DNA of 44,361 nt from a bacterium (GTDB lineage Bacteria; Zhuqueibacterota; QNDG01). The notes under the pieces are model-generated. The model saw only the letters and a list, made by a program, of their open reading frames with translations. It did no database searches and had not been told where the DNA came from. This document shows positions 6,702 to 30,394 of this stretch, piece by piece. Numbering within the stretch: position 1 is the first letter of the stretch; the number at the start of each line of letters is the position of its first letter. A program made the position numbers and the translations under genes. Location of the stretch: the NCBI GenBank assembly GCA_021158245.1, contig JAGGVB010000204.1:1-44361 (forward strand), written 5' to 3'.

Positions 6702-7881
6702 GAATCTCTCTCCAACGTTCTCTTCTTTTCCACTCATCTATAAAGAATTTTATTAATGCCGCAGTAGGAACTCCTATTATCAGCCCCCAAAATCCGAATA
6801 TCTTTGCGAAAATAAGTACTGAAAAAATAACTGCAACAGGATGAAGCCCAACTCTGTCACCGACAATTTTCGGAGATATTACATAACCTTCAAGCCCTTG
6901 TACAACAAGAAATACAGCGCCTATTTCTATTGCAGCCATAAGAGGGTTTGAAGTAAAAAGTGCTGTAAGAAGAGCTAATCCCAGGCTTATGTAAAGGCCT
7001 AAAAACGGGATAACATTTAAAAGCCCTGTCATAACACCGACTAAAATTGCAAAGGGTATGTTAAAAATAAACAGCCCTGCCGTTGTAAGGACTCCGACAA
7101 ATGTACAGACGATTATCTGTCCTCTGACATACTGTCCCAGGATTCTGTTCAGTCTCCATGAATAAAAATAGATATTTTTTCTATACTTTTTCGGGCCAAG
7201 GTCAAGAAGCCATTTTTTAATTACATCAAAATCTTTTAAAAAATAAAATGTTAAGATCGGAATCAGAATCAAATTAAAAATTCTGCTTAAAAAGGTGCTC
7301 ATTCCTGTAACACCTTTCAGCACATTGGACAGAATCTGCTCAAAAGTAGTAGGTATATTCCCCATAAAATGTTCTTTAAATGTATCAACATCTATGTGCA
7401 GAAAATGGAGGACTCTCGGTGTCATATCCTGGACCAGATCAGCTGTCTGTACTGCAAGTTGCGGTACTTTTTGTATAAGATCCTGTATTTCCTTGACAAG
7501 TGCTGGTAAAAGCAGGAACCCGAAGATTATTACAAGCCCCAACGAAACCAGCATAATAATCATTACCGATACTGTTCTTGAAAAACGGGCATTCTGAAGC
7601 TTATCTGCAACAGGATCAAAAAGATATGCTGTAATACCTGCAATGACAAATGGGAATATTACAGACTGAGTCCACGATAAAAACCATATAAAAAGTATAA
7701 AAAAAACAACAAATGAAAGAATTCTTGCCGCCTTGTACTCTCTTAACCCTGCAAGTATAATTAGCAGCAGAATCCCCACAAAAAGGGGAGATAAGACTGA
7801 ATATGCAGCCCATATAAATGCAGACAGAAAAACTAATATGGAAATTACAGACAGATAATTTTGGGTAATGTTATTTTTCAT
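6664..7881 (-). CDS. AI-2E family transporter (YhhT/PerM type permease)
   Basis: A 405-residue polytopic membrane protein of the AI-2 exporter family (PF01594). Paired hydrophobic helices occupy the N-terminus (residues 10-95). A periplasmic or cytosolic stretch with amphipathic helices (125-200) follows, then a cluster of helices in the second half containing the family block GVMTGLLNVIPFLGLYISLG and a terminal GFWGLIIGVPTAALIKFF. Members transport AI-2, Na+/H+ or unknown substrates, and the substrate here is not predictable. It is the first gene of the unit reaching the metalloprotease. It starts just downstream of a terminator belonging to the preceding operon. Confidence 0.92.
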   Translation of the reverse strand: MKNNITQNYLSVISILVFLSAFIWAAYSVLSPLFVGILLLIILAGLREYKAARILSFVVFFILFIWFLSWTQSVIFPFVIAGITAYLFDPVADKLQNARFSRTVSVMIIMLVSLGLVIIFGFLLLPALVKEIQDLIQKVPQLAVQTADLVQDMTPRVLHFLHIDVDTFKEHFMGNIPTTFEQILSNVLKGVTGMSTFLSRIFNLILIPILTFYFLKDFDVIKKWLLDLGPKKYRKNIYFYSWRLNRILGQYVRGQIIVCTFVGVLTTAGLFIFNIPFAILVGVMTGLLNVIPFLGLYISLGLALLTALFTSNPLMAAIEIGAVFLVVQGLEGYVISPKIVGDRVGLHPVAVIFSVLIFAKIFGFWGLIIGVPTAALIKFFIDEWKRRERWREILEQKRAYSSENR

Positions 7882-7889
7882 AAAATATT

Positions 7890-7919
7890 TAAAAAGGAGG
7901 GCTTTTAAAAAACCCTCCC
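7890..7919 (-). terminator. Rho-independent terminator of the CsgG/FlgT-like operon
   Basis: GGAGGG (7896-7901) pairs with CCCTCC (7913-7918), with further A/T pairing inside the loop. On the minus strand the stem is followed by TTTTT. It lies 21 bp after the stop codon of the CsgG-like gene and separates that operon from the AI-2E permease. Confidence 0.82.
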
Positions 7920-7939
7920 TGTTACCTGTTTCTTTTCAA

Positions 7940-8845
7940 TTAATTAACTTTTATAATATCGCCTTTTTTCATACCTCTGCCGCTTACAATAACAGCTTTT
8001 GCAGCCTTACCTCCTGTAATCAGCCCCGTTATTTTAATTACTCCTGTCTTCTTTTCCTCAACACCGAGAGAAAGCCCTGTATCCGGATCTATCAATTCTT
8101 CCCCTTTTGAATAGACCGTAAATAAATCCCCGGTTTTTACTCCTCCCTCAGATCCAGGTTTAATATAGATAATCGAACCTTTGACAAGAATAATCTTACC
8201 GCTCCACGGCATGACTTCCATCTGTTTTTCTATTAAAGCAACTACTGCATTAACAGCATTACGCGTTGCTTTTCCTACAAGAGAATTATCAAAGCTGGTC
8301 CTGTCATTAAATCTTCCATTCCTTGAAGAAAATGACAGCCCGGATGAAGATTCTTCTTTCCTCACATTCTCCGCTGCAAGAATTTCTCCTGTAGTAGTAT
8401 TCACAATTCTAACATCAATTGCCACAGTAGCAGACTGTTTTTTTACACCAATACCAATTCCTTTAATTCTTCCCCGTGTACTGGATTTCTTATAACCGAA
8501 CTCACTTACTGAACCAAATACAGCAAGTTCAACTCCAAGAAGACGGCCGATTGCTACAGCACTCTGCTGAGTAACTCTGCCGCTTTGGCCCAGGTTCTGC
8601 TCCTGCATAATTTTATCTATTTCCTGACGTTCAATCACTCTGTATTTTCCATTCTTTACAAGAGTGGTTACAAGCATGTCAGCCATTCCGTCTCCGGGAG
8701 AGCCCCCGTTCCACCATCTATAGGGGTGAGAGGTTTTATCTTCAAACGAAAATACAGCAATACGGCGTTTCAGCTGTGCATTGGCTGCTGATGAAAGTAA
8801 AATTATTACTGCAAAAAAAGTAAAATATACTATATTTTTCCGCAT
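7940..8845 (-). CDS. CsgG/FlgO-like exported protein with FlgT-C-like C-terminus
   Basis: A 301-residue exported protein with signal peptide MRKNIVYFTFFAVIILLSSAANA. A CsgG-fold domain (about residues 27-200) shows RIAVFSFED, the GMADMLVTTLVKNGKYRVIERQEID block and LGVELAVFGSVSEFG. The last 85 residues (IIYIKPGSEGGVKTGDLFTVYSKG...GVIKITGLITGGKAAKAVI) form an SH3-like domain resembling the C-terminal domain of FlgT. There is no lipobox cysteine, so it is probably periplasmic or inserted through partners. It ends the envelope operon, with a GAGG ribosome binding site and a 16-bp gap after the FlgT-like gene. It may contribute to an outer-membrane ring; curli-type CsgG secretion is less likely because no csgA, csgB, csgE or csgF is seen. 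Confidence 0.82.
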   Translation of the reverse strand: MRKNIVYFTFFAVIILLSSAANAQLKRRIAVFSFEDKTSHPYRWWNGGSPGDGMADMLVTTLVKNGKYRVIERQEIDKIMQEQNLGQSGRVTQQSAVAIGRLLGVELAVFGSVSEFGYKKSSTRGRIKGIGIGVKKQSATVAIDVRIVNTTTGEILAAENVRKEESSSGLSFSSRNGRFNDRTSFDNSLVGKATRNAVNAVVALIEKQMEVMPWSGKIILVKGSIIYIKPGSEGGVKTGDLFTVYSKGEELIDPDTGLSLGVEEKKTGVIKITGLITGGKAAKAVIVSGRGMKKGDIIKVN

Positions 8846-16667: not shown

Positions 16668-17687
16668 CTAAGCTCTGCCGGCCTGTACAGTTCCGATAAC
16701 AACAGGTTCTTCGCCTTCATCTTCCAATATCTTCATAAGAGGTGTAACTACTTCCGGCCTGATAATTAAAATAAACCCTATTCCAAGATTAAAAGTCTTG
16801 CGCATCTCTTCATCAGGCACGTTTCCCGCTTCCTGAATAAGCCTGAAAACAGGCGGTACAGTCCAGTTTCGCCAGTCAATTTTAAGTGTAAGGCCATCAG
16901 GAAGCACGCGAATTGTATTTCCTATTATGCCGCCTCCAGTAATATGCGACATACCTGAAATTTTTACTTTACCTAGAAGAGGCGAAATAACATTAAGATA
17001 ACTTTTATGAACTGCAAGCAGAGCCTCTGCTACGGTTGTGCCCAGTGCATCAATATAGGTATCAGGTTTATAACCTGCTGCATCAAAAAGTACTTTTCTC
17101 GCAAGAGAATACCCGTTTGTGTGCAGCCCGCTTGAAGGAAGCCCCAGAAGCATATCTCCATCTTTTATCTCTCTTCCGTCAATAATATCTTTTTTATCTA
17201 CAATACCTGTAATTGACCCTGCAAGGTCATAATCTCCCTCTTTATAGAAGCCTGGCATTTCTGCCATCTCTCCTCCTATAAGTGCACAGCCATTATTTTT
17301 ACACCCCCTTACCATTCCGCTGATTATCTGTTCCACAGCATCGGGTTTTAATGTGCATGTGCCTATATAATCAAGGAAAAATAGCGGACGCGCGCCGCCT
17401 ACAAGTATATCATTTACCGAATGATTTACCAAATCTTCGCCGATTGTATCGTGTTTTCCTGTCATTATTGCGACTTTAAGCTTTGTTCCCACACCGTCAA
17501 TAGAGCTTACAAGAACCGGTTCCGCATAGCCCTTAATATCCGGCATAAAGAAACCTCCGAATTTGCCAATATCCGTAAGGACATTATCATTAAAAGTCGT
17601 ACGCACTGCAGATTTTATACGGCGTACAGCTTCTTTTCCTGCTTCTATATCAACACCTGCATCTTTATAACTAATCTTTTTTGTCAT
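16668..17687 (-). CDS. purM: Phosphoribosylformylglycinamidine cyclo-ligase
   Basis: A 339-residue purine-synthesis enzyme that closes the imidazole ring to make AIR using ATP. Motifs include SYKDAGVDIEAG, the loop DGVGTKLKVA and GEDLVNHSVNDILVGGARPLFFLDYIG, followed by ALIGGEMAEMPGFY and MSHITGGGIIGNTIRVLP. Length is usual. It starts 17 bp inside the preceding DUF4416 gene, indicating translational coupling. Confidence 0.97.
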   Translation of the reverse strand: MTKKISYKDAGVDIEAGKEAVRRIKSAVRTTFNDNVLTDIGKFGGFFMPDIKGYAEPVLVSSIDGVGTKLKVAIMTGKHDTIGEDLVNHSVNDILVGGARPLFFLDYIGTCTLKPDAVEQIISGMVRGCKNNGCALIGGEMAEMPGFYKEGDYDLAGSITGIVDKKDIIDGREIKDGDMLLGLPSSGLHTNGYSLARKVLFDAAGYKPDTYIDALGTTVAEALLAVHKSYLNVISPLLGKVKISGMSHITGGGIIGNTIRVLPDGLTLKIDWRNWTVPPVFRLIQEAGNVPDEEMRKTFNLGIGFILIIRPEVVTPLMKILEDEGEEPVVIGTVQAGRA

Positions 17688-18207
17688 ATCTGTCTCCGGA
17701 TAAATATTTTTCTCTCACTCTTTTCAGAAAATCAATAACTGTATCCGATTTATAATCAGGGAAAGTCCAGGGATGCGGCCGGAAATCATTCTGCCTGTAC
17801 TGCAGCTGAAGATCTCCGTAAACACCTTTTCCTATGTAAATTCTATGGGCAAAATTCTTTGCAGATGCAACAACAAGTTTTGAGCCTGAAAGATATGCAG
17901 GGTCAAGATTAACCCTTCTATTGTTTTTTTCTGCAAATTCCTTTTCAATCTCATTAGTTTCTGTCTTAATTTGTGCAAGTTCTCCCGGGTTTATCAAATT
18001 TTCAAAACTAATAAATAATTTCTTGAGATATTTGCCCATTTCCCGTTCATAATAATCCGTATATGAAAAATCGAACTCATTACTTCTGTCATCAACCTCG
18101 CCGTATAAATATATTAATCTCTCTTCTACTTTATTAAGATCTACTCCTTGCGCGAATGTTACAGCGAATATAAGTTTGACAGGCTTAACTTTTCTAAACT
18201 CAGCCAC
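17671..18207 (-). CDS. DUF4416 family protein (copy 2)
   Basis: A 178-residue protein of unknown function, paralogous to the DUF4416 gene at the left edge and sharing the same blocks (SYTDYYEREMG, KTETNEIE, RVNLDPAYL, SAKNFAHRIYIGKGVYGDL, HPWTFPDY). It starts with GTG and an AAGGG ribosome binding site, and is the first gene of the operon that continues with purM (17-bp overlap), plsY, gpsA and asnS. Placement suggests a role tied to nucleotide or phospholipid synthesis, but that is only an inference. Confidence 0.85.
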   Translation of the reverse strand: MAEFRKVKPVKLIFAVTFAQGVDLNKVEERLIYLYGEVDDRSNEFDFSYTDYYEREMGKYLKKLFISFENLINPGELAQIKTETNEIEKEFAEKNNRRVNLDPAYLSGSKLVVASAKNFAHRIYIGKGVYGDLQLQYRQNDFRPHPWTFPDYKSDTVIDFLKRVREKYLSGDRYDKKD

Positions 18208-18825: not shown

Positions 18826-20793
18826 TTACACATTTTCATTATTGTACACAGTCTCTACTTCATCATGCTGTTTCTGTGTCATTATTTTTTCAATATCAAG
18901 CAAAATGAGAATATCATCTTTAATTTTTGCGAATGCCAGAATAAATTCCGTATTCATATTTGTTCTGAAACCGGGAGCATCATCAATATTATTCTTCATA
19001 ACATCAATTACAGCAATCACTTTATCAACAACAACTCCAATCTGGACAGAACCTTCCAAAGATTCGAATTCAAGTACAATAATCCTGCATTTTCTATCAC
19101 AATCTCTGTGTTCCAGCCCCATGGCAAGACGAAGGTCAATTACAGGTATAACCCGCCCCCTGAGATTCATAATTCCGGTTAATATTGGATCGGATTTCGG
19201 AACAGAACGCATAGGAGCGAATTGTATAATTTCTCTTATACTCATAATATCTATTCCGAACTGCTGGTCTCCTAGATCAAAAGTTAAATATTTCCCTTCA
19301 ATTCTTCTATCTTCAGCAATTATATCTTCTCCTTCGTCAACTCTTGAGCTGAGAATATCCATGGCCCTTTCACCTGCGCTGTATCCTGTTGTTTTTTTTG
19401 CGGCACTTCCATTAACACCACAGGCAGCATCTGCAAATCTAAGATCAACAAACTCATCAAGATCAATAATCTTTCCGATATTCATCTGATCGTGCATATA
19501 GTGCTGAACCCGCTCAAGGTCCTCTTTTACAGGATAAAGATCGTCTGTAGTAATTCCCAATGGTTCCGTCAGAACATTTTTCACAAGCTGCGGTTTAATT
19601 CCCAGGCTGCCGTCAGGATCAAGGAACGATACCCCAATCTCTGCAGCAAGCCCTGGCTTTTCAGAAATAAATTTTCCAGCTTCTACGAGATATTTTGAAA
19701 ACTCATATACAGCATCCGAATATTGATCAATAATTTCATCCCGCAATGTTACTACACAGCAAGGATGATCTTCCCACAACTCTTTTGAAAAAAACTGCAG
19801 AGAAGCATCCCCTGAAGCAATGGCTTTTGTACCAAGAGGTTCAGCAACGAGATAACCGCAGGCATCAGGGTTTTCAGCCAGCAGATTGGGCATTTTAATG
19901 GGAGGAACAACTTCAAAATTCACATCCGTACCTTCTCCTCCTGTAAAACTTGCATTAAGCCCTATATTATCGAAAAACATATGCGCCAGCATGTGATGAA
20001 TCGACAGCATGTGGGGGATGTAAAAAAATTTATTCCTGAAAAAATCCTGATACGGCTTTTGGTAATCCCCTCCTTTATTATTCCTTACAAAAATACTTCC
20101 GTTTTTATGAGCAAGAAGCACCAGTTTGATTGGAACGCCGTAACCGAACAAATCCATGGCAATGGGTGCAAGAACGCATGCTCCGTCAACACTCCCGCTC
20201 TCCAGCCCGCTGCTCACAGGATTCCAGCTTTCCATGCAGACTGTTTCAAGCTCAAAATATTCCGGAGAAACTTTACCTGAATCAATCATATGTTTAAGTA
20301 CACCGAGAACAAGATGGTCTGTAATCTGAATATGTGCAACACGGAATATCACCTTACCCGATTCACTGATTTTCGGCTCCCATGTTCCTTTTTTATTCCC
20401 CTCACTCGGGCCGCTGAATGCTTCTTCAATCTTTTTACTTAACTCTTCAGCATTAAATGGTTTTGCAATAAAACTGCTGACTCCTGCATTAGACGCTTTT
20501 TCAACCTCTTTTTTCTCACCGCGTCCTGTTGCCATAATAAAAGGGACATCTTTAAAATTCGGTTTCGATCGGACCCATTGCAAAAGCTCATACCCGTTCA
20601 TGTTCGGCATGTTCCAATCACTGATTACAAGCTCAATATCTTTTTCTTTCTTTAATTTATCAATCGCCTCATTCCCGTCTTTTGCTTCAATGATATTAGA
20701 AAACCCTATGCTTTGAAGAGTTTTTTTCTCCATTGACCTCATTACACCGGCATCTTCAACCAATAAAACTACAATGTCCCTGCTAACCGCCAT
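18826..20793 (-). CDS. Fusion protein: CheY-like receiver + NrtA/NasS-like solute-binding domain + CheW
   Basis: A 655-residue protein with no signal peptide or membrane segment. The receiver (about residues 6-122) is CheY-like: VEDAG, phospho-acceptor Asp59 in VISDWNMPNMNGYELL, MATGRG and IAKPFN. Residues 140-470 form a periplasmic-binding-like domain of the NrtA/NMT1 kind: MESWNPVSSGLESGSVDGACVLAP, MLAHMFFDNIGLN, VEPLGTKAIASGDASL-like text (VAEPLGTKAIASGD). A CheW domain (about 495-640) follows: GKYLTFDLGDQQFGIDIMSIREII, MNLRGRVIPVIDLRLAMGL, GVVVDKVIAVIDV. The ATG at 20793 has GGAGG; the ATG at 20808 has no ribosome binding site. It is the last gene of the signalling operon. It probably senses a small molecule in the cytosol and connects to a CheA/receptor array encoded elsewhere. 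Confidence 0.9.
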   Translation of the reverse strand: MAVSRDIVVLLVEDAGVMRSMEKKTLQSIGFSNIIEAKDGNEAIDKLKKEKDIELVISDWNMPNMNGYELLQWVRSKPNFKDVPFIMATGRGEKKEVEKASNAGVSSFIAKPFNAEELSKKIEEAFSGPSEGNKKGTWEPKISESGKVIFRVAHIQITDHLVLGVLKHMIDSGKVSPEYFELETVCMESWNPVSSGLESGSVDGACVLAPIAMDLFGYGVPIKLVLLAHKNGSIFVRNNKGGDYQKPYQDFFRNKFFYIPHMLSIHHMLAHMFFDNIGLNASFTGGEGTDVNFEVVPPIKMPNLLAENPDACGYLVAEPLGTKAIASGDASLQFFSKELWEDHPCCVVTLRDEIIDQYSDAVYEFSKYLVEAGKFISEKPGLAAEIGVSFLDPDGSLGIKPQLVKNVLTEPLGITTDDLYPVKEDLERVQHYMHDQMNIGKIIDLDEFVDLRFADAACGVNGSAAKKTTGYSAGERAMDILSSRVDEGEDIIAEDRRIEGKYLTFDLGDQQFGIDIMSIREIIQFAPMRSVPKSDPILTGIMNLRGRVIPVIDLRLAMGLEHRDCDRKCRIIVLEFESLEGSVQIGVVVDKVIAVIDVMKNNIDDAPGFRTNMNTEFILAFAKIKDDILILLDIEKIMTQKQHDEVETVYNNENV

Positions 20794-20808
20794 CTTTTCC
20801 TCCCTCAT

Positions 20809-21477
20809 CTATTTTACAGCTTCTTTTAATTTTCCATTCTCATCAACTAATTCAGGATAGAGCTTCTTTAAACAATCAGGACAATAGCTGTGTGTAAATT
20901 CAGCCTCAGAATGATTTTGGATATAAACTTCCACTTGATTCCAGTATCCTTCATCATCTCTAACTTTCTTGCAGTTGGCACAAATAGGGATGAGTCCGCT
21001 GAGAGTCTTAACTTTTGAAAGAGCCTCTTCAAGTTCATTAATCAATTTTTCCTTTTCAAGCTCAAGGCTTTTTCTTTCAATTGCATACCATATAGACCTC
21101 GCCAACAGGCTGCTGTTAACCGTACCTTTTACAAGATAGTCCTGTGCCCCTTCTCTTACTGCATCCACAGCTATCTTTTCATCATTCAATCCGCTCATAA
21201 CGATAATTGGTATCTGGCCGGCATGTTCTCTGATACTCTTGAAGGTATCCAGGCCGCTGCTGTCAGGAAGGGTTAAATCCAAAAGGATAATATCAACAGC
21301 TTTTTTATTAAGTGCAGCTGTAGCTGCATGAATACTTTTCTCCCACTCAAGATGATACCTGGATAAGATTGACCCTTTCCCCTCCTGATCCACAAACATT
21401 TCATGAATGAGGCGGGCATCACCTTTATTGTCTTCTACAAGAAGAATGCTTATATCTTTTACTTGATTTTCAGACAC
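20809..21477 (-). CDS. Response regulator receiver with C-terminal Cys4 (zinc-ribbon-like) module
   Basis: A 222-residue protein. The receiver domain (about residues 8-130) has LLVEDNKGDARLI, Asp in IILLDLTLPDSSGL, VMSGLND and the lysine in YLVKGTV. A short coiled coil (LELEKEKLINELEEAL) leads to a C-terminal block IPICANCKKVRDDEGYWNQVE...THSYCPDCLKKLYPEL. That CxxC...CxxC block is common at the ends of bacterial sensory proteins and probably binds zinc; its role is not known. The GTG at 21477 has GAGGG at 7 nt and avoids overlap with the upstream gene; an ATG at 21519 is the alternative. Confidence 0.85.
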   Translation of the reverse strand: MSENQVKDISILLVEDNKGDARLIHEMFVDQEGKGSILSRYHLEWEKSIHAATAALNKKAVDIILLDLTLPDSSGLDTFKSIREHAGQIPIIVMSGLNDEKIAVDAVREGAQDYLVKGTVNSSLLARSIWYAIERKSLELEKEKLINELEEALSKVKTLSGLIPICANCKKVRDDEGYWNQVEVYIQNHSEAEFTHSYCPDCLKKLYPELVDENGKLKEAVK

Positions 21478-21494
21478 TTTACTACCCTCTTTTT

Positions 21495-22853
21495 TCAAGT
21501 TATAAATAACTGGTTCCATTCAGGTTTATCTGTTTTAGAGAGCGTTTCCTGTACGTTCTTTCTTAATTCATGTATGTCAACAGGTTTTCTAATATATGGC
21601 ATTATTGTCTGCCCTCCGGTGACTTCCATTAGAATATTCCTGTCAAGATGAAAACCGCTTATTATTATTAAAGGTATATGCCTGCTGTTAAATTGATTTT
21701 TTACCTTTTCAATAAATTCATATCCGTCAATTCCCGGCATCATTAAATCCAGAATTATTAAATCGGGTTTTTCATCTTCCAAAATCCTTAAAGCATCTTC
21801 CCCGTCTGTTTTGCCAATTACACGGTACTTATCTCTCTCAAGTACATCTTTAACAAGCATCACAGTATTAAGGTCATCATCTATGATCATTACTGAAGGG
21901 ACAGGCTCTTTTGTTATTGAAAAATTTATAGAAGTATTGTTATTTCTGTTCCTGCTCAGCCATATTCTTCCCTTATGGCTCAATATACTTGCTCTTGCAA
22001 TGACCATGCTTAAAATCTCTTCATTTGACATCTCTCCCATAGAAGCCTGCCCGTTTATAAAGACCCTGTTAAATGCACCTCTTGAGAAATCGTGGAATTT
22101 TCCTGCAATTGTAAATATTATATCTGATTCAGTATCAACAACGTTAACCAATAACTTATCATTCTGATCAGAATAATAAACACAGAAGCCCAATATTTCA
22201 ATAATTGCATTCTTTATTTTATCAGAATCCGCATAAACAAATATCTCATCATCAGAGAATGACTTATCAACAGAAAGATTCTTCTCTTTTAAAAAACCAT
22301 TGGAAGCATCAAGAGACTGCATCACAACTTGGTTCATATTGAAAACGCTTCGCTTTAAACTAAAATATCCTGCTGCTATTGCTGAAAAATCCGCAAGTTT
22401 CTCAATAGGCATTATTATTTTTTCAAAGGATTCTCTAATCTCCAATAATTTTTTAATATTCCCGGGTGAGAGTGACTTTTCAGAATCAACAACAAATTTA
22501 TCAACCTTTTCCCGCATAGTCAGCATATTAATCTTTACGTTCCGGTTTAAAATACCAGGTATTGCATCCCTTAAGGCCTTAACATATTGGTCACTTTTTC
22601 TTTTTTTATAATGTTTTGCCGCCTCTTTTTCTTTTTTCATTACAATTATTGATATCATGCTGCTTGACAAAATAATTACAAACACACCGAGAAGCCTTAT
22701 CCATATTGTAATCGAATCTCCTGGCAGCAGATATTTGAAGAAATATTTACTGCCGGATAAAAATTCATCTCTCAAAGTATCGAGAAGCCAGTACAACATA
22801 CTGAAAAACACACCTGTCAGCATGATTTGAGTATAAATTTTTTTCTTTTTCAT
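21495..22853 (-). CDS. Membrane hybrid histidine kinase with degenerate kinase core and C-terminal receiver
   Basis: A 452-residue protein. Two hydrophobic helices (about residues 8-27 and 47-70) flank a short external loop with no recognisable sensor domain. The kinase region (80-305) aligns with histidine kinases only weakly: the DHp stretch has no HDLR/HELRTP phospho-acceptor, the N-box reads AIIEILGFCVYY, and no DxGxG or GxGLGL is present. A good receiver follows (about 320-440) with IDDDL, Asp in LIILDLMMPGIDGYEF, IISGF and IRKPVD. It probably acts as a membrane-bound receiver or scaffold instead of a kinase. ATG at 22853 (spacing from GGGA about 9) was preferred over ATG at 22862. Confidence 0.85.
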   Translation of the reverse strand: MKKKKIYTQIMLTGVFFSMLYWLLDTLRDEFLSGSKYFFKYLLPGDSITIWIRLLGVFVIILSSSMISIIVMKKEKEAAKHYKKRKSDQYVKALRDAIPGILNRNVKINMLTMREKVDKFVVDSEKSLSPGNIKKLLEIRESFEKIIMPIEKLADFSAIAAGYFSLKRSVFNMNQVVMQSLDASNGFLKEKNLSVDKSFSDDEIFVYADSDKIKNAIIEILGFCVYYSDQNDKLLVNVVDTESDIIFTIAGKFHDFSRGAFNRVFINGQASMGEMSNEEILSMVIARASILSHKGRIWLSRNRNNNTSINFSITKEPVPSVMIIDDDLNTVMLVKDVLERDKYRVIGKTDGEDALRILEDEKPDLIILDLMMPGIDGYEFIEKVKNQFNSRHIPLIIISGFHLDRNILMEVTGGQTIMPYIRKPVDIHELRKNVQETLSKTDKPEWNQLFIT

Positions 22854-22872
22854 ATTGTACATATCCCGATTT

Positions 22873-23247
22873 TTATGATAACATTGTTTCTACGGTATTC
22901 AACAGATCATCTTTTTCATAAGGTTTTCTGATTATCCTTTTCACTCCGTATTTATCTGCAGTTTTCTTAATAGAATCGTCTATTATTCTCCCTGTCAAAA
23001 TAATTACTGGTATTGTAGATGTCATAGGAATTTTACTGATACGATCCAAAAGCGAAAAACCGCCGCCTGCAGGCATCATAAGATCTAATATTATCAGATC
23101 CGGATTTGATCTTATTGCAGATTGAGTACCTCCGTATGCATCAGTTGAAATACTGACATCATATCCTGCAGACTGCAGCCTCACTGCAATCATTTTTGCA
23201 TATTGGATCTCATCCTCAACAACGAGAATTTTCTTTTTATTTTCCAC
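22873..23247 (-). CDS. Stand-alone response regulator receiver
   Basis: A 124-residue single receiver domain. It shows ILVVEDE near the start, phospho-acceptor Asp in LIILDLMMPAGGGFSLL, ILTGR and RIIRKPYE. No output domain is present, so it probably carries phosphate to another protein in the operon or acts by protein contact. The GTG start directly follows the TGA of the upstream kinase, with an AAGGA ribosome binding site, pointing to coupled expression with that kinase. Confidence 0.92.
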   Translation of the reverse strand: MENKKKILVVEDEIQYAKMIAVRLQSAGYDVSISTDAYGGTQSAIRSNPDLIILDLMMPAGGGFSLLDRISKIPMTSTIPVIILTGRIIDDSIKKTADKYGVKRIIRKPYEKDDLLNTVETMLS

Positions 23248-24513
23248 TCACGCTTCCTTGCTGACAACAGGGGAATTAACTATTTGGTTTTCCATACCTT
23301 TTACATTATATACAGGTATAGTGAAAAATATATCCGTACCTTTTCCTAAAACAGATTCCGCCCAAATTTTTCCGCCATGCCGCTCAACAATCCTTTTACA
23401 GAGCGCTAAGCCTAATCCTGCACTTTTTTGATTATTCCTATTCCCCAGGCTTTCGAATAATCCAAAAATCTTTTCTGAATCTTTCATGTCAAATCCGATA
23501 CCATTATCAGAAAATCTAAACTTCCATAATTTCGAATTTCTTTCTGCATGAATATTTATTACACATGTTTCATTCCTTCTGAATTTAATGCTGTTTGAAA
23601 CAAGATTTTGAAAAAGATGCCCTAACTGCACATTATCGCCTAAAATTACCGGCAGTTCATCTTTAATAATTACAGCACCGCTCTCCTCAATTAAAAATCT
23701 TAAATCCGAAAGAACTTTTTCAAGAACCATGTTTGTATCCACAGCCCTGAATTTTCGGCCGTGTGTATTTACCCTTGCAAAATCAAGAAGCCCTTCAATC
23801 ATTTCCTGCATCCTCTTTGCACCCTGTACAGCAAAATCAATAAAACTTCTTCCGTCTTCATCAATAGAATCTTTATACCTCTTTTCAAGAAGTGTTAGAA
23901 ACTCTGACACCATTCTGAGAGGCTCTCTTAAATCGTGGGATGCAAAATACGCGAATTGTTCAAGATCATTATTGGAACGATATAGCTCTTTATTTAATTC
24001 CGCCAATTTCTCCTCTGCCTGTTTCCGCGGAGTAATATCTTTTATTACACCTCTATAACCTTCAAAAGTGCCGCCTTCCGAGACTATTGGGATTCCTGTT
24101 AATGAGATGCATACCTTCAGCCCATTCTTATTTTCGGTCCACCATTCAAGCTCATTAATTATTTTTTGTTTTACCGATAGTTCATTAAATTCTGTTTCAC
24201 CCTCTCCACCCAGAAACTTTGATAAATTTTTATTTATAATTTCATGCGGTTCAAAACCTAAAATAGATTCTATTTTCTCTGAGCTGTATATACAAATTCC
24301 CTTTTTGTCCGTCTCCCATATCCAGCCTGCCATACTTAAAACAATATCTCTGAACCTTTCCCCGCTTTCCCGCAGAGCCTCGTCAAGTATCTGCCTCTCT
24401 GAAATCTCAAGTTTCAAAGCATCATTCTCAAGAACCAGCCTTTTGTTCTCATCTTCCAGCTTCTTCTCTGCTGTGCCGACAAGGACATCGATTTTTTCAG
24501 TTCTTTTCCTCAT
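23248..24513 (-). CDS. Cytosolic PAS-domain histidine kinase
   Basis: A 421-residue soluble sensor kinase. A coiled coil (residues 10-45) is followed by a PAS/PAC domain (about 45-165: MAGWIWETDKKGICIYSSEKIESILGF, GVIKDITPRKQAEE). HisKA carries the phospho-acceptor His in FASHDLREPLRMVSEF, and HATPase_c has N-box HLFQNLVSNSIKF, DNGIGFD, and GLGLALCKRIVERHGGKI. The DHp region is close to that of the 508-residue kinase at 24933-26459. No membrane helix, so the signal is intracellular. It overlaps the preceding receiver gene by 17 nt. Confidence 0.95.
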   Translation of the reverse strand: MRKRTEKIDVLVGTAEKKLEDENKRLVLENDALKLEISERQILDEALRESGERFRDIVLSMAGWIWETDKKGICIYSSEKIESILGFEPHEIINKNLSKFLGGEGETEFNELSVKQKIINELEWWTENKNGLKVCISLTGIPIVSEGGTFEGYRGVIKDITPRKQAEEKLAELNKELYRSNNDLEQFAYFASHDLREPLRMVSEFLTLLEKRYKDSIDEDGRSFIDFAVQGAKRMQEMIEGLLDFARVNTHGRKFRAVDTNMVLEKVLSDLRFLIEESGAVIIKDELPVILGDNVQLGHLFQNLVSNSIKFRRNETCVINIHAERNSKLWKFRFSDNGIGFDMKDSEKIFGLFESLGNRNNQKSAGLGLALCKRIVERHGGKIWAESVLGKGTDIFFTIPVYNVKGMENQIVNSPVVSKEA

Positions 24514-24952
24514 AAAACGGCAGCCTTACTGTTTTAAACCAAAATCTGTCAATAGTATCAATAATTTTGAAATATTCTTCCACATCTACAGGTTTCACAA
24601 TAAAACAATTTGCATGAAGATCGTAAACCATATTCACACTTGCACGAGAATCGTCTGTTGACATAATAATTACAGGAATCAAACGAAGAGTTCTGTTATT
24701 TTTTATTATTTCCAATATTTCCCAGCCGTTCTTCCCTGGCAGGTTTAAATCCAGAAATATTAAATCGGGAGAAAGTTCAGGATTTTCAGCTACTCTTTTT
24801 AAAAGATACTCAATTGCCTCATTTCCGTTACTCTGTACAGTAATTTCATAATTCCGGTATCTGCCGAATGCTTCTTTTGCCAGCCAGATATCTCCCTCGT
24901 TATCCTCAACAAGAAGAATGTTGTATTTATTATTACTCATCTTCCGTTTCAT
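24497..24952 (-). CDS. Rcp1-like response regulator
   Basis: A 151-residue receiver-only protein of the Rcp1 type (long N-terminal acidic site LLVEDNEGDIWLAKEAF and extended C-terminus FWFKTVRLP). The phospho-acceptor Asp is in LIFLDLNLPGKNGWEIL, with IIMSTDD and IVKPVDVEEYF. Rcp1-type regulators usually pair with phytochrome-like or PAS kinases carrying a SHDLREPL motif, as the two flanking kinases do. It starts 20 bp inside the upstream kinase gene and overlaps the next kinase by 17 nt. Confidence 0.92.
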   Translation of the reverse strand: MKRKMSNNKYNILLVEDNEGDIWLAKEAFGRYRNYEITVQSNGNEAIEYLLKRVAENPELSPDLIFLDLNLPGKNGWEILEIIKNNRTLRLIPVIIMSTDDSRASVNMVYDLHANCFIVKPVDVEEYFKIIDTIDRFWFKTVRLPFYEEKN

Positions 24953-26459
24953 ACTCTTTTTTAGGTAGCGTAAAAATAAATTCAGATCCTGTGTTATTTC
25001 GTGATTCCGCTTTTATTGTCCCTTTGTGATGTTCAATTATTTTTTTACACATAGCAAGCCCGATTCCCGTTCCCTGAACAGAATCATCCTTATCAAGCCT
25101 TTCAAAAATATTAAACATTCTTTGTGAATCCTTCACCTTAAACCCGGGGCCGTTATCTGTAACACAGAACTCAAAGAAGTGATCTGTTTCCCTTACAGAG
25201 ATATCTATTTCAGGCCTCTCTTTATCACAAAATTTAATTGAATTTGTAATTAAATTCTGAAAGACCTGGCCCAGCTGAATTGGATCGCCTGTAATGACAG
25301 GTAAATTCTTTTTTGTGATTTTTGTATCTGTCTCATCAATATAAAACATCAAATCAGCCTGCACTTTTTTCAGAACATCATTTAAGTCAACATTTGAAAA
25401 TTTCGTTTTCCTTGTTGTCAATCTTGAGAAATCAAGCAGGTCTTCAATCATAGCCTGCATCCTAACAGCGCCATTGGAGGCAAAATTTATAAAACTGTCG
25501 GCATCCTCACCAAGCCGGCCCTTGTATCTTTCCGAAAGAAGCCTCAAAAACTCTGTGACCATTCTGAGCGGTTCCCTTAAATCATGGCTCGCAACATAGG
25601 CGAATTGTTCAAGTTCGCTATTAGACCTCTCAAGTTTTCGATTTAAATCTCTTAACTTGTCTTCTGCAATTTTTCTCTCGGAAATGTCCCTGCTTATGCC
25701 CAGAATGCCTTCAGGTAAATTTGAATTATTTCTAATAAGGGATATTTTTGTTTCAGTCCATATATCTTTATTCTCTATTGTCCTGAACGGAAGTTCGATC
25801 ATTATAGACGAAAATTTATTATTTTCTGCTGTAATTTCCGTTAATTTTCCCAATTCTTTTTCCAGGACAACCTTTGCCTCGTCAGCCATAATATCCAGCC
25901 AGGGTTTATTAATTATTTCATCGCTTTCATATCCCAGAAGATTTTTCACAGAAGGGCTTGCAAACGTAATTTCAAGGTCGTAATTAACTATCCATACAAA
26001 ATCACTCATATTCTCAGCAAGAAGCCTGTATCTGCTCTCACTTCTTTCAAGTGCCTCCTCAGCTTCACGCCTTCTTGTTACATCAGTAACTATCAGCATT
26101 ACAGAAGATACAGCATCTTCTTCAAAAACAGGGCCGAACCTTACCTCATACCAGGCCTGTGCATTCGGATTTCCACTGCCTCTGCAAATAATACTATCAG
26201 GCCTGCCGGATTCAAAAACCCTGGTTATGTGCTCGTTAAATATCTCCGTATATTCTGTATCTGTAAATGCTTCAAACTTTTGCCCTATAACTTCTTCTTT
26301 TAAAAATCCGGGGAGTTTTCTGTTTACATAAGTAATTTTCCCTCTTTTATTGATATTCATAATAAAATCGGGAGAATTGCGCAATAGAACTTCGAATCCT
26401 TCGGCCTCAGGAAAATTGTTGCTTCTTTCAGTCAATGTACCCATATAAGGCATTTCCAT
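24933..26459 (-). CDS. Cytosolic tandem-PAS histidine kinase
   Basis: A 508-residue soluble sensor kinase. PAS 1 spans about residues 20-135 (FEVLLRNSPDFIMNINKRGKI), PAS 2 about 140-262 (YRLLAENMSDFVWIVNYDLEITFASPS). A HisKA domain with FAYVASHDLREPLRMVTEF and a HATPase with QVFQNLITNSIKFCDK, DNGPGFK and GTGIGLAMCKKIIEHHKGTI follow. The HisKA region closely resembles that of the 421-residue kinase, suggesting that the two kinase/receiver pairs arose by duplication. It is the second gene in the operon. Confidence 0.95.
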   Translation of the reverse strand: MEMPYMGTLTERSNNFPEAEGFEVLLRNSPDFIMNINKRGKITYVNRKLPGFLKEEVIGQKFEAFTDTEYTEIFNEHITRVFESGRPDSIICRGSGNPNAQAWYEVRFGPVFEEDAVSSVMLIVTDVTRRREAEEALERSESRYRLLAENMSDFVWIVNYDLEITFASPSVKNLLGYESDEIINKPWLDIMADEAKVVLEKELGKLTEITAENNKFSSIMIELPFRTIENKDIWTETKISLIRNNSNLPEGILGISRDISERKIAEDKLRDLNRKLERSNSELEQFAYVASHDLREPLRMVTEFLRLLSERYKGRLGEDADSFINFASNGAVRMQAMIEDLLDFSRLTTRKTKFSNVDLNDVLKKVQADLMFYIDETDTKITKKNLPVITGDPIQLGQVFQNLITNSIKFCDKERPEIDISVRETDHFFEFCVTDNGPGFKVKDSQRMFNIFERLDKDDSVQGTGIGLAMCKKIIEHHKGTIKAESRNNTGSEFIFTLPKKEYETEDE

Positions 26460-26461
26460 TT

Positions 26462-27298
26462 TCAGAATAACTCCTGTAAATCATGCACTATAGACCATGC
26501 ATTTTTCTGAACTTCCGCAGAAATTTTATGTTCATCAAAAATAATAATCAAATTTTGAAATTTCCCGTTTTTCGAATACAGAAAATATTTTTTTTGTATT
26601 ATTTTTTTAATTATTCCATTTATCGTTTTAAGATAAAGCCTCTGTATAGCAGGCCCTCTTTCAGTAATGATCCTGCTGCTGAAATTTATTCTTCTCCGGA
26701 CACAATCAGAATCTCCATATGTTTTATAAATCAAATCAACATTTGATCCTATGGTTTCTGTTTCAGGCCATTCTGTTATACCTGCCGCTCTATTATTAAT
26801 CATATTTATTTCACCTGCATCATCAACTAAAATTACCCCCGCGGACAATCTTCCTATCATACTGACAAGTTTCATATAGGCCATGCCCATCTTCTGCTCG
26901 AATTCAGCTTTATCCAAAGCGCATTTAATCGTTAAATTCAGCTCTCTTGAGTTAAATGGTTTTTGTATATAGCCGTAAGGATTTGTCGCCATGGCCCTGC
27001 CGTATGTATTCTCATCAGTATTGGCTGTTAGAAAAATTATCGGTATATTGAACTCCTTTCTAATTTTCTGAGAAGTCTCAATACCATCCATATTGCCCTT
27101 TAATTTAATATCCATCAAAATAACATCAGGAGTATGGTGATAAAGCTTTTCAATAGCATCAATGCCTTCATCAACAGACCCGATAATTCCATACCCCATT
27201 TGTTTTAAATGTTCCTGCAATTCAAGAGACACAATCCATTCATCTTCAACAATGAGTACAGATGGTTTCTGAACAGTCTTCAATTCCGCCGTATTCAT
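26462..27298 (-). CDS. Response regulator: receiver plus PAS-like domain
   Basis: A 278-residue protein. The receiver (about residues 10-130) has LIVEDEWIVSLELQEHL, phospho-acceptor Asp in VILMDIKLKGNMDGIE, FLTANTD and YIQKPFNSRE. A helical linker and a PAS-like fold (about 150-255: LSAGVILVDDAGEINMINNRAAGITEWP) follow, without a DNA-binding or catalytic output. ATG at 27298 with GGGAG was chosen over an upstream TTG. It is the first gene of the eight-gene signalling operon, immediately before the tandem-PAS kinase. Confidence 0.9.
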   Translation of the reverse strand: MNTAELKTVQKPSVLIVEDEWIVSLELQEHLKQMGYGIIGSVDEGIDAIEKLYHHTPDVILMDIKLKGNMDGIETSQKIRKEFNIPIIFLTANTDENTYGRAMATNPYGYIQKPFNSRELNLTIKCALDKAEFEQKMGMAYMKLVSMIGRLSAGVILVDDAGEINMINNRAAGITEWPETETIGSNVDLIYKTYGDSDCVRRRINFSSRIITERGPAIQRLYLKTINGIIKKIIQKKYFLYSKNGKFQNLIIIFDEHKISAEVQKNAWSIVHDLQELF

Positions 27299-27430
27299 AA
27301 ATCTCCCTGGAAGCAATGATATTTTTCAATTTATATCAGGGCAAAGTTCTTGCCATGAAGCCTATTTTTCAGATTTAAATTGGGCATGAAAATAAAGGAG
27401 TTACACGTAGAAATGCAATTTATTTAAAGT

Positions 27431-28564: not shown

Positions 28565-29206
28565 CTATCCCTCATCCCTGAAAATCACCTCAACGTTTTT
28601 AACATCCCACAGAGGTTCTATTCTCTCTATTATCTCATTTCTTATATTATTTGCAAACTGATGTTCAGGGGCTAAATTTACCCATACAGAAACATTTCCC
28701 TCATCAATCTTTACATCTGATACAAGTTTTGTTTTTACAATATCAACACCAACAATGGGATTTATCACTCTTGACAATCTTTTGGAAACTACCTTCTCAT
28801 CAGTCGGTATTTTGTTTTTAATCAGGCCATGCTGATGTTCATAGTTTTCAATTGCAGTATGCAGCGCATCAACTGCAAGTACAGCGCAGTGAACCTTAAC
28901 AGGAGGCAGCCCTCCAAGGGCTTTATCCGCTTCTTTCCAGTTGATCTTCTTTGCATCACCAATGGATTTTCCTAATGCAAGGTCTGTAATAATTGATCCT
29001 GTAGCAATATTTGAAGCGCATCCGTATGACTCAAACTTTACGTTACTGATTCTTTTTGTTTCTTCATCAATCTTGAGATAAAGTTTTACCATATCTCCGC
29101 ATGCAGGGCTTCCCTCTGTTGCCTTTGCGTCAGCATCCTCTATTTTACCTACATTATGCGGATGCCTGAAATGATCTAAAACTATATCAGAATACGGCAT
29201 TGACAT
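28565..29206 (-). CDS. IscU/NifU-N scaffold fused to a MIP18 (DUF59) domain
   Basis: A 213-residue fusion. Residues 1-125 are an IscU/NifU-N Fe-S scaffold with all three cluster cysteines: Cys36 in GSPACGD, Cys63 in YGCASNIATGS, and Cys107 in LPPVKVHCAVLA. Residues 137-213 are a MIP18/DUF59 domain (VVSKRLSRVINPIVGVDIVKT...VSVWVNLAPEHQFANNIRNEII), the family of SufT and the eukaryotic CIA targeting subunit. Such a fusion would assemble a cluster and help deliver it. The gene follows the cysteine desulfurase by 24 bp, so the two probably make a minimal Fe-S assembly unit. Confidence 0.88.
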   Translation of the reverse strand: MSMPYSDIVLDHFRHPHNVGKIEDADAKATEGSPACGDMVKLYLKIDEETKRISNVKFESYGCASNIATGSIITDLALGKSIGDAKKINWKEADKALGGLPPVKVHCAVLAVDALHTAIENYEHQHGLIKNKIPTDEKVVSKRLSRVINPIVGVDIVKTKLVSDVKIDEGNVSVWVNLAPEHQFANNIRNEIIERIEPLWDVKNVEVIFRDEG

Positions 29207-29230
29207 ATCTATTCTCCGTTAAATATTTAT

Positions 29231-30394
29231 TTATGACATAGGGCTTATTTTTCTTAATGTATCAACAATCTCTCTGGAAGCATCTACTGCTTTATCAATT
29301 TCTTTAATATTGTTAAATTTACTTAATGTAAATCTTATTGAGCCGTGGGCTCTCTCATGGCTGAACCCCATTGCCATCATTACATAACTAGGCTCAAGCG
29401 AACGTGAAAAGCATGCAGAGCCGGTTATTACTGCTATTCCCCTCATATCAAAGTGCAGGACGACTGATTCTCCTTCTATTTTATTAAAGGAAACATTAAC
29501 ATTTCCGGGAAGACGTCTGCTTAAATCCGCAGGCCCGTTCAGAACAACTCCTTCGATTTCTGAAGTTAATCTGCTAACAAGTCTTTTCTGCATACTCCTT
29601 ATCTTACTGATATCTTCGGTATTTGCAAGTTCAACTGCTTTTGCAAAGCCCACAGCACCCGCAACATTTTCTGTCCCAGGCCTTATATCGAATTCATTGT
29701 ATCCGCCATGAAAAATTTTCTTTAGATTAGTTCCCTTCCTCACAAAAAGAGCGCCTATTCCCTTAGGCCCGTGAATTTTATGTGCAGATAGAGATAAAAA
29801 ATCAGCAGGAATTTTTTTAAGGTCAATATTAATATTAGTAAAAGTCAAAACTACATCCGAATGAAAAAGCACTCCGTTTTCTTTACAGATCTCTGCAATT
29901 TTATCAATATCCTGCAATGTACCGGATTCCTGATTTCCATGCTGAATCGACACAAGAAGAGTTCTTTCATTAATTGAATCTTTAAGCTGGCCCATATCAA
30001 CAAATCCCTGGTTATCAACTTTAAGATATGTTACAGAATAGCCCTGCTCTTCAAGCCATCTGCAGGAATGAATAACGCTGTTGTGTTCTATCTCTGAACA
30101 AATTATATGATTTTTATTCTCATCTGCACCGTACACTACTCCTTTTACTGCAAGATTGTTTGATTCTGTCCCGCCTGAAGTAAAAATAATCTCCTCCGGC
30201 AAAACATTCAACTTACCTGCAATTATATCTCTTGATCTGTCAAGAGCATCTCTTGATCTGATTCCCGGTGTATGGCTGAACTGAGAAGATGCTACTGCAT
30301 AATTCTCTGTAAAATACGGAATCATCGCTTCAACAACAGCAGGGTCCGTTTTTGTTGTAGAAGCATTATCAAAATAGATTAAATTATCTTCCAT
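29231..30394 (-). CDS. NifS/IscS-type cysteine desulfurase (divergent active site)
   Basis: A 387-residue PLP enzyme that should move sulfur from cysteine to the Fe-S scaffold next door. The N-terminal FDNASTTKTDP, TSGGTESNNLAVKG, PLP lysine in SAHKIHGPKG, and the mobile catalytic cysteine in TGSACFSRSLEPSYV are present. Two usually conserved PLP-contact blocks look altered: NNEIG reads NQESG, and HxDAAQ reads HSDVVL, replacing Gln by Leu. The ribosome binding site is GGAG. It lies upstream of and close to the IscU-MIP18 gene and downstream of tRNA-Pro. Confidence 0.9.
   Translation of the reverse strand: MEDNLIYFDNASTTKTDPAVVEAMIPYFTENYAVASSQFSHTPGIRSRDALDRSRDIIAGKLNVLPEEIIFTSGGTESNNLAVKGVVYGADENKNHIICSEIEHNSVIHSCRWLEEQGYSVTYLKVDNQGFVDMGQLKDSINERTLLVSIQHGNQESGTLQDIDKIAEICKENGVLFHSDVVLTFTNINIDLKKIPADFLSLSAHKIHGPKGIGALFVRKGTNLKKIFHGGYNEFDIRPGTENVAGAVGFAKAVELANTEDISKIRSMQKRLVSRLTSEIEGVVLNGPADLSRRLPGNVNVSFNKIEGESVVLHFDMRGIAVITGSACFSRSLEPSYVMMAMGFSHERAHGSIRFTLSKFNNIKEIDKAVDASREIVDTLRKISPMS

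Follow-up and report, generated by a model that had tools for sequence, protein, structure and literature searches.

A receiver, solute-binding and CheW fusion protein as a candidate cytosolic sensor of the CheA array

The gene described here encodes a single protein in which a CheY-like receiver (REC), an importer-type solute-binding domain (SBP) and a CheW domain follow one another. We propose that it is a cytosolic sensor of a soft metal or a sulfur compound that would dock in the CheA array in the manner of CheV and CheWS, with the REC serving as phosphorylation input or feedback, and we put the probability of this reading at roughly 0.6. Within the window, by which we mean the whole 44,361-nucleotide stretch of DNA that was analysed, a minus-strand open frame of 655 codons fills positions 18826-20793. 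Its features are listed below.

18826-20793, minus strand: REC-SBP-CheW protein of 655 aa (ATG at 20793, stop at 18826-18828)
20799-20805, minus strand: AGGGAGG ribosome-binding site of the REC-SBP-CheW gene, read straight from the sequence
20425-20769, minus strand: CheY-like receiver, residues 9-123 (Pfam PF00072 Response_reg, E 8.3e-25)
20617-20619, minus strand: codon of the phospho-acceptor D59, in the SDWNMPN motif of the receiver
19414-20349, minus strand: NMT1_2/SsuA/NrtA-like solute-binding domain, residues ~149-460 (PF13379, 3un6 profile)
19756-19767, minus strand: HPCC motif H343-P344-C345-C346, in which C346 occupies the position of NrtA K269
18874-19293, minus strand: CheW domain, residues 501-640, with the NLRG arginine R545 (PF01584, E 6.9e-33)

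A preliminary description of this DNA had reported the three domains in one frame without stating the strand, and Pfam bears it out, with the Response_reg, NMT1_2 and CheW matches each above the curated cut-off. The NMT1_2 match (PF13379) covers residues 176-385 (E 1e-21; 78 bits versus a cut-off of 24.7), and homology to solute-binding proteins extends more widely, across residues ~149-460. AlphaFold returned a pLDDT of 52 for the full protein and for the SBP alone, from an alignment of only five sequences. No signal peptide precedes the receiver, which begins at residue 9, and a transmembrane segment is not evident either (19-residue hydropathy maximum 1.61). Because it opens with a receiver and is without a strongly hydrophobic stretch, its SBP should be located in the cytosol, as had been predicted.

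The residues expected of functional domains are invariant. In 39/39 REC-SBP proteins the receiver retains E13, D14, D59, T89 and K111, D59 being the phospho-acceptor already picked out in SDWNMPN, and this complete set supports a receiver that should be phosphorylatable. Invariant in the same 39 proteins are SBP residues H154, D159, H160, W190, H229, G232 and S233, together with H261, S264, H266, H343, P344, C345 and C346. R545, the arginine of the CheW domain, is present in 32/32 and is compatible with predicted docking in the CheA/CheW ring. The invariance of these functional residues speaks against degeneration in any one of the domains.

Operon, array and proposed signalling

The REC-SBP-CheW gene closes a tight run of eight two-component genes, whose gaps range from -25 to +15 bp. 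Of the seven genes upstream (20809-27316), two encode PAS histidine kinases and five encode receiver proteins.

20809-21519, minus strand: receiver protein with a C-terminal Cys motif, co-directional and 15 bp upstream of the REC-SBP-CheW gene
21495-22862, minus strand: membrane-anchored protein with a C-terminal receiver; the middle is kinase-like by eye, with no Pfam kinase match
22873-23247, minus strand: single-domain receiver
23248-24513, minus strand: PAS histidine kinase (HisKA, HATPase_c)
24497-24952, minus strand: single-domain receiver
24933-26459, minus strand: two-PAS histidine kinase
26462-27316, minus strand: receiver protein, first gene of the eight-gene run

Further from the gene, the window encodes a NifU-like protein and a cysteine desulfurase at 28565-30394, about 8 kb upstream and probably outside the sensor operon, and two DUF4416-type genes, at 17671-18207 (Pfam) and at 197-727 (by eye only).

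No cheA or MCP gene adjoins the REC-SBP-CheW gene in the window's genome, which counts against our reading. The preliminary description had suggested that both be sought elsewhere in the genome, and there they are found: other contigs carry the CheA, CheW, MCP, CheR and CheB genes, and FliM is present. CheA is encoded in 31/31 carrier genomes tested and FliM in 27/31, the four without it being one family, in which REC-SBP-RsbW-STAS proteins encoded beside CheA occur as well. The background frequency of FliM is 30/82 in the window's phylum and 238/395 in the phylum of a Desulfobacteraceae MAG, and the enrichment in carriers gives Fisher p values of 0.005 and 3e-4, uncorrected for relatedness. 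Chemotaxis genes also occur beside the sensor. In two genomes the next gene downstream encodes a CheX phosphatase, and after it come a standalone SBP without a signal peptide and a ferredoxin-type (Fer4) protein; a CheY gene lies 31 bp upstream at one locus (L182) and an MCP gene is upstream at another (L196).

For array docking, phosphorylation, ligand binding, the identity of the ligand and the direction of signalling, we infer the following scheme. The SBP would have been taken from an importer-type binding protein, would have lost its export signal and would now read a small intracellular ligand. The CheW domain would dock the sensor into the CheA signalling array, as in CheV and CheWS, and opening and closing of the SBP would be passed to the array through it. 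The receiver would obtain phosphate from CheA, and perhaps also from the operon's own pair of histidine kinases, and it would tune or reset the coupling like the receiver of CheV. The earlier proposal that the protein modulates a CheA array under phosphorylation control is plausible in view of the CheA genes and the invariant REC residues; the small anion that it suggested as ligand is the part that is not supported.

In an alternative reading phosphorylation would come first: the histidine kinases of the operon would drive the receiver, the SBP would be a ligand-free, repurposed scaffold and ordinary two-component signals would be coupled to the CheA array. This alternative would fit the place of the gene at the end of the eight-gene run, behind two PAS histidine kinases and several receivers, and also the invariant REC residues. 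It is nevertheless unlikely, because the pocket-type residues are invariant in 39/39 proteins and the SBP exceeds the other domains in conservation, unlike a degenerate scaffold, and because the two-component operon context was not seen in other genomes.

An equally improbable alternative is that the output is not taxis at all, and that gene expression or uptake would be controlled through CheA-like kinases and partner switching, the CheW domain serving for docking only. Some relatives do carry other outputs. Four proteins in the family around the Desulfobacteraceae MAG have the order REC-SBP-HATPase_c_2-STAS, an RsbW/anti-sigma type pair; a CheA gene follows in 4/4 of these loci and a REC-PP2C gene precedes three. 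Three REC-SBP proteins of one family around that MAG have no output domain. In the four related FliM-less genomes the CheW version is the first gene of an operon that goes on with the genes of an ABC importer of the same superfamily (ATPase, SBP with a Tat signal, permease); because FliM is absent, flagellar taxis cannot be the output in this one family. Against a general non-taxis output stand the presence of FliM in all other carriers tested (27/27) and the occurrence of CheX, CheY and MCP neighbours.

Candidate ligands of the binding domain

To judge from predicted pocket residues and relatives, the likeliest ligand is either a metal ion of soft or borderline character, like Ni or Zn, or a small compound of sulfur. 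The closest solved structure for the SBP is 3un6 (profile E 5.9e-22). There is also a match to the NCBIfam model TIGR01728 (SsuA family), below its cut-off. Residues D159-H160, H229, H266 and C345-C346 are common to the sensor SBP and to exported SBPs linked to Ni-CODH. In 8/8 such loci, from two phyla, an SBP-permease-ATPase importer lies beside the CODH catalytic subunit, which at one of them matches TIGR01702 with 507 bits. An importer cluster of this kind was described for clade B Ni-CODH by Inoue et al. in 2019, who proposed Ni import and noted homology between its SBP and 3UN6, a periplasmic metal-binding protein from Staphylococcus aureus (PMC6344411). In a 2026 survey clade B was again accompanied by ABC transporters, and the function of clade B was called open (PMC13056359). 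Importer linkage would place the CODHs at our loci in clade B. A metal is our leading idea for the ligand because the pocket-type residues are shared with these Ni-CODH-linked SBPs, for which Ni import has been proposed. The metal/CODH link itself belongs to the exported relatives; the sensor has no CODH neighbour.

The main alternative to a metal is a sulfur compound, and it is toward this that some neighbours point. A DUF169 gene is beside the sensor in three lineages, and in two of them a fusion of a DsrC/TusE domain with a NifS/IscS-type cysteine desulfurase is encoded next to DUF169 and the sensor (L125:12365-13798 and L126:7794-9392). For a Desulfovibrio gene cluster that includes DUF169, a connection with thiosulfate uptake has been proposed (PMC4001038). 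The ligand cannot be read from the Cys pair alone, because the HPCC motif is also present in SBPs adjoining cyanase genes.

The preliminary description had instead pointed to nitrate, bicarbonate and similar anions, which would make the protein a NasS-like oxyanion sensor in the cytosol. The SBP superfamily is indeed the same, and NasS shows that such domains can work in the cytosol (PMC3795266). In NrtA, H196 and K269 have been named as nitrate determinants (PMC8786288), and the chain alignment, which sets the 2g29 offset at 29, places H196 at H266, so that this histidine is kept, and K269 at C346. Nitrate is unlikely because K269 is replaced by a cysteine that is invariant in 39/39 proteins, whereas NasS retains all the nitrate-coordinating residues of NrtA (PMC3795266). 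NrtA is also a distant profile match, at 1.8e-5 versus 5.9e-22 for 3un6; 3UN6 and TIGR01728 both score above it, and the nearest exported kin are Ni-CODH-linked. Neither nitrate genes nor a NasT-like gene were recognised by eye among the neighbourhoods read. We therefore abandon nitrate and bicarbonate as the ligand class and consider an oxyanion sensor very improbable.

Distribution, origin and meaning of the fusion

Complete REC-SBP-CheW proteins number 36 and come from three phyla. A genome of the same genus encodes a copy with 71% identity, two genomes of the same order and phylum have copies that are 56-57% identical, and a fifth carrier (G077) is known; copies in named Bacteroidetes and Ignavibacteria MAGs are 52-54% identical. 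The sensor was found in 5/82 sampled genomes of the window's phylum, in 21/395 of the phylum of the Desulfobacteraceae MAG (excluding three further matches that were exported SBPs only) and in 5/396 of the phylum of an Ignavibacteria MAG. The SBP was the best-conserved region in every comparison made. A search of a plasmid collection returned distant exported SBPs only, with <30% identity, and a viral origin was rejected since the 16 pattern matches in IMG/VR included no relative. Fusion of separate genes by misassembly or sequencing error, which the preliminary description had named among the possible objections to its reading and which a draft genome of 233 contigs might invite, has a negligible probability and is excluded by the homologues, in which the same fusion recurs in independent assemblies of three phyla, including contigs of 3.1 Mb and 3.66 Mb.

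In the SBP tree the 39 REC-fused domains form one clade (SH-aLRT 100). The neighbours of this clade are two standalone SBPs without a signal peptide (L189 ~7320-8240 and L191:9391-10311), encoded between CheX and the Fer4 protein in the sensor's operon, and then the exported SBPs linked to Ni-CODH. REC-SBP is also joined to RsbW-STAS beside CheA and so seems to be a portable unit for input, whose SBP probably came from one of the exported type. Descent from a recent copy of the organism's own transporter SBP was considered and dropped, since the SBP of the co-operonic importer in the four FliM-less genomes is not the closest kin in the tree.

Among the SBP genes collected, one that adjoins an ABC permease (L124:1723-2830, minus strand) has a single in-frame TGA, in GFLPVT*HLTCPVTDW, which falls at about the position aligned with D159; it is a candidate SaoB-like selenoprotein.

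A broader interpretation is possible, and we offer it tentatively, as a reading that is more likely wrong than right. It supposes that the family, found in three or more phyla, detects a metal inside the cell, such as Ni, through an importer-type domain wired to the chemotaxis array. Motile anaerobes would then navigate according to the metal or sulfur status of their cytosol, with the sensor's own phosphorylation as adaptation, and in non-flagellated relatives REC-SBP would have been moved to an anti-sigma/STAS switch.

Teaching usually presents chemotaxis as the sensing of the outside, with periplasmic binding proteins feeding the receptors. If an importer-type binding domain has been moved to the cytosol and combined with CheW and a receiver, the internal state of the cell would set CheA activity directly. 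The shared pocket residues tie the sensor to the uncharacterised importer beside clade B Ni-CODH, and one binding assay could inform both. REC-SBP attached to CheW and REC-SBP attached to the RsbW-STAS switch would be a natural pair for studying how the module signals.

Relation to known systems

NasS resembles the sensor as a cytosolic relative of an NrtA-type binding protein that acts as a sensor (PMC3795266). It differs in being a separate protein, with the nitrate residues intact and an ANTAR RNA-binding protein under its control, whereas here the domain is fused and K269 is replaced by Cys. SaoX belongs to the same SBP superfamily, and relatives of the sensor give weak NCBIfam matches to it, but SAO proteins are importer subunits and often selenoproteins (PMC13188914). 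Membership in the SAO system was rejected for the sensor: the cut-off of NF040735 is 300 bits, the window's domain has no match at E 0.1 and that of a homologue (L012) reaches 23.5 bits.

The SBP of the NitT/TauT importer linked to clade B Ni-CODH is the nearest exported kin, with the D-H, H-x-N-G-S and S-x-H motifs and the CC pair in common. Unlike the sensor, it is exported with a Tat-type signal, is part of an importer next to CODH and is without REC or CheW.

In CheV the CheW domain comes first and the receiver last, with nothing between them. The precise role of this CheW-receiver fusion is not understood; docking in the ring and tuning by phosphorylation have been predicted (PMC4742279). 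The protein described here is CheV-like in combining CheW with a CheY-like receiver, predicted to be phosphorylatable, in one chain. We do not file it as CheV, since the receiver is first, CheW is last and an SBP of ~310 residues lies between. Should our reading be right, CheV-like proteins would gain a ligand.

CheWS of Treponema denticola was reported as the first characterised CheW-fused sensor (PMC10653840). The preliminary description knew of no system with the present domain order, and this holds for the literature searched, where we found no description of the REC-SBP-CheW architecture. It does not extend to the principle, as CheW-fused intracellular sensing has been known since CheWS (2023), and the REC-SBP-CheW order may already be among the 30 undescribed CheW architectures that the same paper counts in Pfam (PMC10653840). 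CheWS and the sensor would be alike in that CheW is fused to a cytosolic domain that reads a small molecule, as predicted here. They differ in that CheWS has a CheR-like SAM-binding domain C-terminal to CheW and no receiver, whereas the protein described here has an importer-type SBP and a receiver. With the REC-SBP-CheW proteins included, CheW-fused sensors would extend from a single characterised case to a widespread group.
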